This document shows, piece after piece, positions 4,304 through 57,825 of a stretch of 64,000 nucleotides of DNA. The stretch's first letter is position 1. Every line of letters begins with the position of its first letter. The DNA lies in NCBI RefSeq assembly GCF_000158095.2, contig NZ_CM011002.1, positions 2,761,203-2,825,202 of the forward strand, given 5' to 3'. Made by a program: the position numbers and the translations under genes. This stretch comes from Roseibium alexandrii DFL-11. Its GTDB lineage: Bacteria; Pseudomonadota; Alphaproteobacteria; Rhizobiales; Stappiaceae. The notes beneath the pieces were generated by a model, which saw only the letters and a list, made by a program, of their open reading frames with translations, was not told where the DNA came from and did not search any database.

Positions 4304-5050
4304 TCAAAACAAATCCAACTGCCCACCGCCTGTTGCCGCCTTCTTCTGAGTTCGGCTCGTCTTTTCCGGAGCGTCTGCCTGCTCAAGCGGAACCTCGACT
4401 TGCAGATCCGGGTCATCATTCACGACTTTATTGACCCGCGTGGAGACAGGAACAGCTTTCAGATAATCGTCTTCGATTGGCAGCATCAGCTGTTTCACAT
4501 CCCGAACGGGCACATTGCCGGTGTCTAGCCATGTTTCGAAACTCTCCGGCCTCAAGATCACCGGCATACGATGGTGGATTTCGGACATCATCCGGTTGGA
4601 TTGCGTGGTCAGCATCGCCCCGGAATCCATGTCGCCGCCGTCCGGGTCGGACCACGTTTCCCAAAGGCCCGCAAAGGCCATCAGCCTACCTTCTGCGGGC
4701 GAAATATAGAAAGGCTGCTTGCCCTCTGGCGTCCGCCGCCACTCGTAAAAACCCGAGGCTGGAAACAGACACCGATGGTGTTTCATGGCCGAGCGGAACG
4801 ATGGTTTTTCGGCTGCCGTCTCTGCGCGCGCATTGATCAGAAGCGTGAAACTTGCCGGATCCTTCACCCAGGATGGTATCAGGCCCCAGCGGACAAGTTG
4901 AAACCGCCGCTGGCCATGCGCATTGATCACTGTCGCCACCGGCTGGGTCGGCGCGATGTTGTAGCGTGCCGGAAAATTCGGTTGATCGATGTAGCCAAAA
5001 AGCGCCCGTACATCGTCCGGTGTGGCTGTCAGGCTGTAACGTCCGCACAT
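4304..5050 (-). CDS. yedK: SRAP-domain DNA-protein crosslinking protein (YedK/HMCES family) with a clamp-binding tail
   Basis: 248 residues. The initiator Met is followed by Cys2 in MCGRY, the nucleophile that forms a thiazolidine crosslink with abasic sites in single-stranded DNA. The other active-site residues are visible at N73 (INARAET), E103 (GFYEWRR) and H160 (HHRMPVIL). The SRAP fold covers residues 1 to about 215. A basic, flexible tail follows and ends in QLDLF, identical to the consensus beta-sliding-clamp motif. No LexA box (GTTC-N7-GTTC) lies in the 118 bp upstream, so damage induction is not evident. It protects abasic sites at replication forks, and the tail suggests it is brought there by DnaN. 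Confidence 0.95.
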   Translation of the reverse strand: MCGRYSLTATPDDVRALFGYIDQPNFPARYNIAPTQPVATVINAHGQRRFQLVRWGLIPSWVKDPASFTLLINARAETAAEKPSFRSAMKHHRCLFPASGFYEWRRTPEGKQPFYISPAEGRLMAFAGLWETWSDPDGGDMDSGAMLTTQSNRMMSEIHHRMPVILRPESFETWLDTGNVPVRDVKQLMLPIEDDYLKAVPVSTRVNKVVNDDPDLQVEVPLEQADAPEKTSRTQKKAATGGGQLDLF

Positions 5051-55078: not shown

Positions 55079-55771
55079 TTACCCGTGCAGCTTGACCGCG
55101 AGACTTGCCGGAACACGAAGGGCGCCAACGGCAAAACGTGCCAGGGCCTGACGCAGGCCGGTGGCATAGCCAGCTGCTCCCGGTTCACCCGCGCATACGG
55201 CTGCCGCGCGTAAAAACACCATACGGTTGCGGCCGATGCGTTTTGCAAGGTCCAGATCTTCCATTTCCGGCAATGGCCGGTGGCCACCAAGCTTTTCATA
55301 AAACTGGCGGGAGATCAGAAGGCCCTGGTTGCCATAAGGCATACCGAGCAGCTGGCTGCGCACTGAAGCGGCCTTTTCAGACAAACGCGGACCAAGCCCA
55401 AAAGCCTCGTAGCGCAACCGGAAGGCTGCCGCCGTCTTCGGACCTTTTGGGGTTCGTCCCGCCCGTTCTATGAAGGCTTGGGCTTCATGATGCCAGCCGC
55501 TTTCCAGAAGGGTTTCAGGCTGCAGGAACAAAAGCCAGTCGCCGCGTTTGGCAACGCTTGCGCCATGCGCGAGGCGCTCGCTGCGCGGCCCTTTGCGCGT
55601 CACGAACGTGCAGCCAGCCGCATCAGCAACCATCGCCGTGTTATCGGTCGACCCACCGTCCACAACGACAACTTCCCGAACAACACCTTCGGCGGCTGCC
55701 GGAACCAAGGCAGCCAACGCGTGCACAAGGTCGAGTTCTGCGTTTTCTGTCGGAATTATGACACTAATCAT
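55079..55771 (-). CDS. glycosyltransferase family 2 protein
   Basis: 230 residues. ISVIIPTENAELDLVHALAAL and EVVVVDGGSTDNTA are the GT2 nucleotide-sugar site, with the acidic triad thought to lie in DGGS and the later EMEDLDL (the catalytic ED). No membrane segment. Its target sugar or lipid is unknown; it is not in a polysaccharide cluster. Copies of this type (TIGR04283-like) appear alone in many genomes. Confidence 0.85.
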   Translation of the reverse strand: MISVIIPTENAELDLVHALAALVPAAAEGVVREVVVVDGGSTDNTAMVADAAGCTFVTRKGPRSERLAHGASVAKRGDWLLFLQPETLLESGWHHEAQAFIERAGRTPKGPKTAAAFRLRYEAFGLGPRLSEKAASVRSQLLGMPYGNQGLLISRQFYEKLGGHRPLPEMEDLDLAKRIGRNRMVFLRAAAVCAGEPGAAGYATGLRQALARFAVGALRVPASLAVKLHG

Positions 55772-55878
55772 GACCCTTTCTATGACATGAAATTATCGAA
55801 AGTGCGAGAGAAGGGGCTTGTCCGGCGCCGGATTTTGGATAATGTTCTTGTATTGTTCTCATAAAGAGTCGGCAGTCT

Positions 55879-57012
55879 ATGACACTTGCACCCCCAATCC
55901 CTCCTGTTTCTGCTCAACCGGCGCCCGATGCGGCGGATCTGAGCCATATGGCGGCCGACCGGCGCCGGGGACGTGCGGCCGCGACAAACCTCTCGGGACG
56001 GTTCGAGCCCCTTTCTAAAGAGGCCTTCGACGACGGCTGGGACAGTCTCGACGAATTGCCACCGCTCAAGACGGAAGTGCAGGAAGAACGCGCGCGGACG
56101 ATCATTACGCGCAATGAGTCTCCGGACATTTCCTTCGACCGCTCGATAAACCCGTATCGTGGTTGCGAGCATGGCTGTATCTATTGTTTTGCCCGGCCAA
56201 GCCACGCCTTCATGGGCCTGTCGCCGGGCCTCGATTTTGAAACCCGGCTTTTTGCCAAACCCAACGCCGCAGCGCTCCTTGAGCGGGAGCTCTCGAAGCC
56301 GGGGTACCAGCCCAAGGTCATCGCCATCGGTACCAACACCGACCCCTACCAGCCGATGGAGCGCAGCTACAAGCTTATGCCGGAGATCCTCGAGGTTCTG
56401 GAGAACTGCGGCCACCCGGTCGCAATCGTTACCAAATCGGCGCTCGTGACCCGGGACATCGACATTTTGTCGCGGATGGCCGAGCGCAATCTGGTCAAGG
56501 TAGCTTTGTCGATTACGACGCTCGACAAAAAGTTGTGCCGCGCCATGGAACCCCGCGCATCCGCGCCACACAAGCGTCTTGCAGCGGTCAGAACACTGAG
56601 CGATGCAGGCATTCCTACCTCCGTCATGATGGCCCCCATCATACCTGCGCTAACGGACAGTGAAATTGAGAACCTTTTGGAAGCAGCCGCTGAGCACGGG
56701 GCCAGCGAAGCAGCCTTTATTCTGCTGCGTCTGCCTCTGGAGGTGTCTGAGCTCTTTCGCGATTGGCTTTTGCGGGAACGCCCGGACCGCTACCGCCACG
56801 TGATGAACCTGATCCGCTCCATGCGCGGCGGCAAGGATTACGATGCCAAATGGGGCGAGCGCATGCGCGGGCGCGGCCCCTATGCCGACCAGATCGCCAA
56901 ACGCTTCTCGTTGGCGGCCAAACGGCTGAGTCTGAATTTGCGCAAGAGAAAGCTGTCCACCGAGCATTTTATCCAGCCGCAAAAAGGCGGCGTGCAACTG
57001 GATTTGTTCTGA
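55879..57012 (+). CDS. PA0069-type radical SAM protein with clamp-binding C-terminus
   Basis: 377 residues. The radical SAM cluster motif is CEHGCIYC (C-x3-C-x2-C), within SINPYRGCEHGCIYCFARPS. YQPKVIAIGTNTDPYQPMER and KVALSITTLDKKLCRAMEPR follow, as in the PA0069 and spore-photoproduct-lyase-like group. The last residues are GGVQLDLF, ending exactly in QLDLF. The family has no proven reaction; a DNA-repair role was suggested by its likeness to SplB. rnhB lies 156 bp downstream on the same strand. Confidence 0.9.
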   Translation: MTLAPPIPPVSAQPAPDAADLSHMAADRRRGRAAATNLSGRFEPLSKEAFDDGWDSLDELPPLKTEVQEERARTIITRNESPDISFDRSINPYRGCEHGCIYCFARPSHAFMGLSPGLDFETRLFAKPNAAALLERELSKPGYQPKVIAIGTNTDPYQPMERSYKLMPEILEVLENCGHPVAIVTKSALVTRDIDILSRMAERNLVKVALSITTLDKKLCRAMEPRASAPHKRLAAVRTLSDAGIPTSVMMAPIIPALTDSEIENLLEAAAEHGASEAAFILLRLPLEVSELFRDWLLRERPDRYRHVMNLIRSMRGGKDYDAKWGERMRGRGPYADQIAKRFSLAAKRLSLNLRKRKLSTEHFIQPQKGGVQLDLF

Positions 57013-57046
57013 GCGCAGTAAAGAGACCGCATTTGCCCTCCAAACG

Positions 57047-57121
57047 CCGTCCCGAACGCAGCAAGGCGGAGATTCGGGACCTGCTGGCGTGCGCTGTGGT
57101 CCCGGCTCAAGGCCGGGACGG
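57047..57121. repeat. REP-like palindromes (family A)
   Basis: GTCCCGAACGCAGC...GAGATTCGGGACC (57049-57081) then GGTCCCGGCTC-AAGGCCGGGACGG (57098-57121). They fill the gap between the radical SAM gene and rnhB. Confidence 0.75.
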
Positions 57122-57168
57122 CACCAACATGTCTTGCGCCTTGTTTTGCCAGACGGCATTTTGGCCCA

Positions 57169-57825
57169 ATGACCAAAACACCGTCCCTCTTCGACCTCGC
57201 GTTTCCGGACAACCCCGACCTGAAAATCGAGAAAAAACACGCCAAATCCTATGACGGCCTTTTGTGCGGGGTCGATGAAGCCGGCCGCGGGCCATGGGCG
57301 GGTCCTGTGGTGACGGCGGCGGTTATCCTGGACTATGCGAATGTGCCGGCCGGACTGAACGACTCAAAAAAGCTGACTGAGGCCAAACGGGAATCCCTGT
57401 TCGGCGAGATCCTCAAAACCAGCTGGGTGTGCGCGGCAAGCGCTTCACCTGCTACCGTTGACAAGCTGAACATCCGGACGGCGACGCTGAGCGCCATGGT
57501 GCGGGCAGTGAACGGCCTGCCCAGAGTTCCGCAATACGTTCTCATCGATGGCCGCGATGTACCACCCGGTCTCGCCCAACCCGGGCAGGCGCTGATCAAG
57601 GGCGATGGCCGCTGCCTGTGTGTCGCCGCAGCCTCTATCGTTGCCAAGGTGCTGCGGGACCGAATGATGGTCGCCTTGGAGCCCGAATTTCCCGGCTACG
57701 GCTTTGCCCAGCACAAGGGATACGGGGTACCAGCACACCAAGCGGCCTTGGATACCCTGGGGCCGACAGCGCATCACCGGATGAGCTTTAAACCAGTCCG
57801 GCTTGCCGCCGACACTACACTCTAG
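57169..57825 (+). CDS. rnhB: ribonuclease HII
   Basis: 218 residues. The DEDD active site is seen as GVDEAGRGPWAGPVV (D and E), LIDGRD and the later catalytic D in VLRDRMM. It cuts RNA in RNA-DNA hybrids and single ribonucleotides in DNA. The N-terminus TPSLFDLAFPDNPDL precedes the fold as a short arm. It converges with the DUF3179 gene, with only 4 bases between the stops. Confidence 0.95.
   Translation: MTKTPSLFDLAFPDNPDLKIEKKHAKSYDGLLCGVDEAGRGPWAGPVVTAAVILDYANVPAGLNDSKKLTEAKRESLFGEILKTSWVCAASASPATVDKLNIRTATLSAMVRAVNGLPRVPQYVLIDGRDVPPGLAQPGQALIKGDGRCLCVAAASIVAKVLRDRMMVALEPEFPGYGFAQHKGYGVPAHQAALDTLGPTAHHRMSFKPVRLAADTTL

Follow-up and report, generated by a model that had tools for sequence, protein, structure and literature searches.

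A conserved clamp-type C-terminal motif and LexA boxes suggest that PA0069-family radical SAM proteins are SOS-induced enzymes delivered to DNA by the replication clamp

Radical S-adenosylmethionine (SAM) genes are already in print as members of SOS regulons. In PMC3323433, PMC8565304 and PMC7739468, LexA control of splB, COG1533 or radical SAM genes is predicted or reported for alpha- and betaproteobacteria, Bacteroidetes, Gram-positives and Balneolota; PMC3765255 links SplB-like radical SAM genes to ImuB-C, and PMC9380542 lists a LexA-bound, mitomycin C-induced radical SAM gene of Streptomyces, vnz_31145. These genes are conserved, often under the name 'splB', and we found no lesion or mechanism described for them. 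In this work we present an analysis of a radical SAM gene of the PA0069 family, located at 55879..57012 (+) in a 64,000-nucleotide stretch of Roseibium alexandrii DFL-11 (contig NZ_CM011002.1, positions 2,761,203 to 2,825,202), hereafter the window. A first-pass annotation, made by a model from the letters alone, had pointed out that the encoded protein ends in QLDLF, the peptide type that binds the bacterial replication clamp DnaN, and had suggested a DnaN-recruited radical enzyme working on DNA.

The gene encodes a protein of 377 residues, with the C-terminus STEHFIQPQKGGVQLDLF and a stop codon at 57010-57012. It is a full-length member of the PA0069 radical SAM family, as its score against the NF033668 profile is 570 bits (cut-off 360) with profile positions 1-348 of 348 covered, while against the Rv2578c-family profile NF038135 it reaches 247 bits, below the cut-off of 430. 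The radical SAM domain PF04055 is found with 66.8 bits, which places the protein in the radical SAM superfamily. Its closest named protein relatives come from Roseibium, and an alternative start is possible at codon 24, matching several 354-residue homologues among those listed. The 4Fe-4S cluster motif CEHGCIYC (CX3CX2C, residues 96-103, 56164..56187, +) has its three cysteines, 96, 100 and 103, invariant in 58 of the 58 rows of an alignment of the family (A2), in which no further Cys column reaches 40%. The identity of a light-driven DNA photolyase was rejected, PF00875 being absent and PF04055 the sole domain found.

The C-terminal QLDLF lies at 56995..57009 (+), exactly as the first-pass annotation had it, and we carried out the survey of C-termini that it had proposed. 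Of 299 Pseudomonadota genomes, 111 have a protein above the NF033668 cut-off, and 110 of these orthologues were analysed (G114 was left out). A clamp-type motif was present within the last 25 residues in 107 of the 110, in 72 as the strict form Q[LM]xL[FL] and in 35 in a broader form, and it stood exactly at the C-terminus in 92. The three others are L059 (QMDLF) and L045 (QGDLF), both followed by longer tails, and L032, with a looser QLTLPGL only. As background we took 1003 neighbouring gene proxies, i.e. the longest non-overlapping frames of at least 150 residues, and by the same test only 21 of them carry such a motif; 2 of the 21 are strict and 1 is exactly terminal. In a control with another radical SAM family, RlmN, the motif was found in 0 of 30 frames, which were chosen by length and several of which are probably not RlmN.

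The tail also extends beyond Pseudomonadota orthologues. A seven-sequence alignment led to 583 confirmed wider relatives. Among the best 80 of these, which originate from Gemmatimonadota, Acidobacteriota, Actinomycetota, Chloroflexota, Armatimonadota, Balneolota, Rhodothermota, Verrucomicrobiota, Melainabacteria and Pseudomonadota, the motif is present in 73, and near forms occur in three (L132 QLPLAW, L152 QLALTNL, L168 QLDFG). Actinobacterial relatives usually carry it, for instance as QLRLL in Nonomuraea and QLSFI and QLSLM in Streptomyces. In a seven-sequence alignment (A1, four phyla) the motif Q is the sole invariant column after the barrel, and Q373 and L376 reach at least 90% conservation in the alignment of 58 rows. 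A quick tree of 124 rows with midpoint rooting combined the wider relatives with roughly one in four orthologues and 16 relatives from a plasmid collection. One side of a branch with support 94 has the motif in 106 of its 115 rows, the other in 1 of 9, a split which is not certain, because long branches meet there.

The window sequence fits the clamp consensus QL[S/D]LF, as quoted in the excerpts of PMC9690074 and PMC13254535; the latter also gives the revised forms Qphix[L/M][F/L] and Qphix[L/M]x[F/L], where phi is L, I, V or A. A motif was placed in 180 family members; of these, 136 have L or M at position 2, position 3 holds most often S (71), A (27) or D (16), and position 5 holds F in 121 and L in 42, the motif Q and part of positions 4-5 being imposed in these counts by the search pattern. 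Six-residue variants (QMALDL, QMGLDF, QMSLGW, QLSLSL, QLSLRI) are seen as well. Against the background, only 6 of the 1003 proxies fit the revised consensus, whether or not M is added to phi, so that the contrast with the family stands. At the level of DNA, the pattern for Q[LIMF]xLF followed by a stop (TGG also passes) has 26 matches in the 5.46-Mb genome, vs 29 for the reversed pattern; 15 of the 26 have a true stop, and by eye only those in the PA0069 gene and in the gene of a SRAP protein look like real genes.

The regulatory region provides the second line of evidence. A predicted LexA (SOS) box, GTTCTTGTATTGTTC, lies at 55844..55858 (+), 20 bp upstream of the ATG; the window holds no other exact box of the alpha type (GTTCN7GTTC or GAACN7GAAC). 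Since genome-wide matches are abundant (107 + 85 for GTTCN7GTTC, 138 + 129 for the reversed-pattern control), a single match means nothing and conservation is the evidence. Exact GTTCN7GTTC was found upstream of 67 of 71 alphaproteobacterial loci, and each of the four misses has a box with one mismatch; CTGTN8ACAG was found upstream of 28 of 37 other Pseudomonadota loci. The control stretches, searched for either type of box, gave 1/71 and 0/37 in the gene body and 0/70 and 1/37 downstream, both matches being alpha-type. Two loci, L043 and L084, were not anchored by the script, and a box was seen by eye in each. L054 has the palindrome TTAGTAATAATACTAAT, of the Xanthomonas LexA kind. Box counts among the wider relatives cover the 12 actinobacterial loci, where GAACN4GTTC occurs within one mismatch in 11 (5 exact; control 1 of 12). 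Different host groups have different types of box, which points to regulation that has been retained. A putative LexA box is therefore a conserved feature of PA0069-family promoters, and we consider SOS control of the family almost certain on these sequence grounds.

The third line comes from a predicted structure. The AlphaFold model, built from 58 sequences, has a mean predicted local distance difference test score (pLDDT) of 86 and a predicted template modelling score of 0.82, and its best structural matches (VIA-align) are entries of spore photoproduct lyase (SPL), ahead of the others by about 4-5 Z units and spanning most of residues 39-356. SPL is also the enzyme that the first-pass annotation had named as resembling the family. 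Lipoyl synthase, viperin and peptide maturases rank after SPL. Sequence searches against the PDB were less telling: phmmer with the window protein returned nothing useful, and a profile search found NifB best (E 1e-4), with SPL only at E 0.05. In the model the motif lies past the last long helix (334-349), at the low-confidence end, and appears accessible, outside the folded core. The description of the preceding part as a disordered Gly/Lys-rich stretch was overstated; it amounts to a short linker of about PQKGGV (residues 367-372, 56977..56994, +), and, as the pLDDT averages 87 for residues 361-370 and falls to 61 only for 371-377, the flexible part is short.

Taken together, the conserved tail outside the modelled fold, the SPL-like fold and the LexA box are best explained by a DnaN-recruited radical enzyme that acts on DNA, as the first-pass annotation had proposed. 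Neither of the two outcomes that it had named as refuting the idea was observed, since orthologues do carry the motif and the modelled core does not enclose it. Cleavage of LexA after DNA damage would allow synthesis of a radical SAM enzyme with an SPL-like barrel, the C-terminal QLDLF peptide of which would bind the beta clamp DnaN at its hydrophobic pocket; docking would hold the enzyme at replication forks, gaps or repair tracts, where its 5'-deoxyadenosyl radical may reverse or process a DNA base lesion. Clamp docking through the tail is, judging by sequence conservation, highly probable, and DNA is the likely substrate. Because SOS control, clamp docking and a DNA substrate are correlated, we also regard the joint reading, an SOS-induced SPL-like radical enzyme delivered by the clamp to DNA, as reasonably likely. 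The chemistry is probably not that of SPL itself, which repairs 5-thyminyl-5,6-dihydrothymine, since no conserved fourth Cys is seen.

Several observations weigh against this proposal. The published consensus as quoted fits 54 of 110 orthologues (56 miss) and 42 of 80 wider relatives; with M added to phi, which is our own extension, 82 and 51 fit, respectively, and 28 of the 110 orthologues still miss it (with forms such as QGELF, QGSLF, QQQLF and QLSLI). Four of the 80 wider relatives (L133, L144, L140, L199) are plainly without the motif, besides the three with near forms only, and 8 of the 37 anchored non-alphaproteobacterial loci lack a recognisable exact box. SOS genes are, moreover, not all enzymes of DNA lesions. 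In 38 of 56 rows Tyr321 and the motif Q are 51 residues apart (range 43-105), which, along with the confidently modelled residues 361-370, makes some structural role of the tail possible.

On a rival view, the C-terminal QxxLF is no clamp ligand but latches the barrel structurally or serves its oligomerisation. The prevailing distance of 51 residues and the confident model of residues 361-370 would suit it, as would the conservation of positions upstream of the motif (in the consensus and at P367 of the 58-row alignment). The motif itself, though, is the low-confidence end of the model, and 42 of the 180 members carry 1-19 residues beyond it, which argues against a buried terminal residue; six-residue forms (QMALDL, QMGLDF, QMSLGW, QLSLRI) occur as in the published clamp code, and the same ending is found in a radical SAM family that cannot be aligned with this one (TIGR03916) and in part of the SRAP proteins, so we judge a latch quite unlikely. 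Chance, or a C-terminal sequence inherited without function, could be argued from the 120 closest homologues, all of which keep QLxLF (114 at the very end), because their linker is nearly as conserved (14 linkers among 114), and close relatives alone consequently prove little. Conservation of the motif over several phyla, at about 27-37% identity, and a background of just 21/1003 make this explanation very improbable.

A different possibility accepts docking on DnaN and places the target elsewhere, in a protein (DnaN, a polymerase or a DNA-crosslinked protein) or a nucleotide. The enzyme would then serve SOS control or tolerance instead of repairing DNA directly. Proteins and nucleotides are frequent targets of radical SAM enzymes, and other members of the superfamily (lipoyl synthase, viperin, peptide maturases) appear after SPL in the structural ranking; the family has no conserved counterpart of the SPL catalytic Cys, and co-occurrence with DnaE2 would also suit a tolerance role. 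In 299 genomes both genes are present in 93, PA0069 only in 18, DnaE2 only in 21 and neither in 167 (odds ratio 41), figures which ignore phylogeny and genome size and to that extent weaken the argument. The lead of SPL over these other enzymes, by about 4-5 Z units over most of the barrel, speaks against it as well, and we find a protein or nucleotide target unlikely. Compared with it, a clamp-delivered enzyme acting on DNA remains our preferred interpretation. A role of PA0069 as a photolyase replacement was rejected, as the two co-occur (89 genomes with both, 22 with PA0069 only, 58 with photolyase only, 130 with neither; these counts likewise take no account of phylogeny or genome size).

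One of the two strict background matches turned out to be another radical SAM repair protein. It adjoins the PA0069 gene in L104 (L104:2115-3356, +) and matches TIGR03916 (rSAM_link_UDG, 'putative DNA modification/repair radical SAM protein') with 566 bits; we presume that TIGR03916 equals COG4277. The two genes are divergent, with a single LexA-type box (GAACATATAGGGAAC) in between. TIGR03916 exceeds its cut-off in 18 of 120 genomes, and each of the 18 members examined has a clamp-type motif at its end (strict in 12, broad in 6), with a LexA box upstream in 14 and in 0 of 18 in both control stretches. A profile scan found TIGR03916 absent from the genome of the window. The family is like PA0069 in its SOS box, radical SAM nature and clamp-type ending and unlike it in alignable sequence, no similarity being found beyond the cluster motif. 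The SRAP protein of the window (4304-5050, -) also ends in QLDLF, as noted at first pass, and a rough count, with frames chosen by length, gives the motif in 10 of 27 SRAP loci, with QLSLL, QASLF, QGSLF, QGELF and similar endings in other alphaproteobacteria. There is an even chance, in our estimate, that bacteria possess a class of SOS-induced radical SAM DNA-repair enzymes riding the replication clamp. It would comprise at least two unalignable families (PA0069/Rv2578c-type and TIGR03916), both with DnaN-docking peptides, and would bring radical-based lesion reversal or base processing to forks and gaps; in some alphaproteobacteria SRAP would be another SOS-associated protein tagged for the clamp.

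As to the neighbourhood, RNase HII (rnhB, PF01351, 57169..57825, +) does lie downstream on the same strand, starting 156 bp on. Its functional partnership, suggested by the first-pass annotation, was not borne out, and we judge it to be outside the system: rnhB is near the gene in just 32 of 110 orthologue loci, all alphaproteobacterial and 3 of them convergent (the flanks covered measured about 1.5 kb for 30 of these 110 loci and some 4 kb for most of the rest), and the motif and SOS box occur elsewhere without it. It is also near the gene in 16 of 80 wider-relative loci. For the family as a whole we therefore reject rnhB as an operon partner. Within 55700-57300 a scan for terminators gave two sites, both on the - strand, vs 1.9 expected, which fits co-transcription of the two genes in the window no better and no worse than separate transcripts. 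Clustering of the neighbours in 154 of 190 loci (36 were dropped, their focal gene having been lost in gene picking) yielded mostly alphaproteobacterial synteny, and no recurrent DNA-repair operon outside it among the clusters present in at least 4 loci. A family 2 glycosyltransferase gene (55079-55771, -) is divergent to the radical SAM gene; relatives of it are present at 28 of the 154 loci, in 26 of them upstream and divergent. Loose but recurrent neighbours in L035, L051, L078, L151 and similar alphaproteobacterial loci include family-4 uracil-DNA glycosylase, rnhB and, by eye, moaB-like and DNA methyltransferase-like genes, with a MutY-like gene in L151.

An anti-phage defence role was rejected, as there is no PADLOC match. 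With regard to carriage by phages, none of the 11 phage records with a match covers 80% of the query. Of 16 matches in viral contigs (IMG/VR), the three closest (L263-L265), which are close relatives of PA0069, lie near the ends of their contigs and may be host DNA from the border of a prophage. Distant radical SAM relatives on haloarchaeal and Nostoc plasmids (L117, L118, L121, L122) have no clear clamp motif, and their neighbour is either another radical SAM gene or the gene of a three-Cys-motif partner (TcmP); L117 was scored as a motif bearer under the loose pattern, probably by chance. Replacement of the clamp motif by an archaeal PCNA box was considered and rejected, none being visible by eye in the haloarchaeal plasmid relatives L117, L118, L121 and L126. 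A plasmid-borne PA0069 gene of Legionella adelaidensis (L123) ends in QLDLFAGIV and is divergent from a PolX DNA polymerase gene.

If the proposal is true, radical chemistry joins the list of clamp-delivered activities, the docking tail places these enzymes on DNA at the clamp, and it also offers residues whose change should abolish recruitment, so that function becomes testable in laboratory strains. Many PA0069-bearing bacteria are, we assume, non-sporing, unlike SplB hosts. SplB itself (4fhc, 4fhf and others) is the best fold match, yet at 14-16% identity; the match stops at residue 357, before the PA0069 tail, the PA0069 genes are SOS-boxed, and SPL has a catalytic Cys, an H-atom donor required according to the C140 mutants in PDB entry titles and an abstract, whereas the PA0069 family is without a conserved fourth Cys. 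The Rv2578c family (NF038135) may take in the actinobacterial relatives, which usually share the tail and the SOS box. The published SOS-regulated 'splB'/COG1533 genes (PMC3323433, PMC8565304, PMC7739468) are likewise linked to LexA and, compared by description, are very likely in part the same family; the excerpts carry no clamp link, and PMC8565304 contains neither 'clamp' nor 'DnaN'. In our searches of the openly licensed PMC literature we found no function or clamp link for the PA0069 and Rv2578c families, in accord with the first-pass annotation, and the co-mention found of 'radical SAM' and 'sliding clamp' concerns an antibiotic targeting DnaN, so within that literature the clamp link is likely new. 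To our knowledge no radical SAM clamp client has been described. The known clients are of other kinds: ImuB, an SOS protein whose clamp motif QLPLWG is needed for recruitment (excerpt of PMC10421592), and Pol III are polymerase-like, and RecB, with QVEMEF (excerpt of PMC13254535), is a nuclease-helicase, all unlike the PA0069 family, which would bring a radical SAM enzyme to the same clamp.
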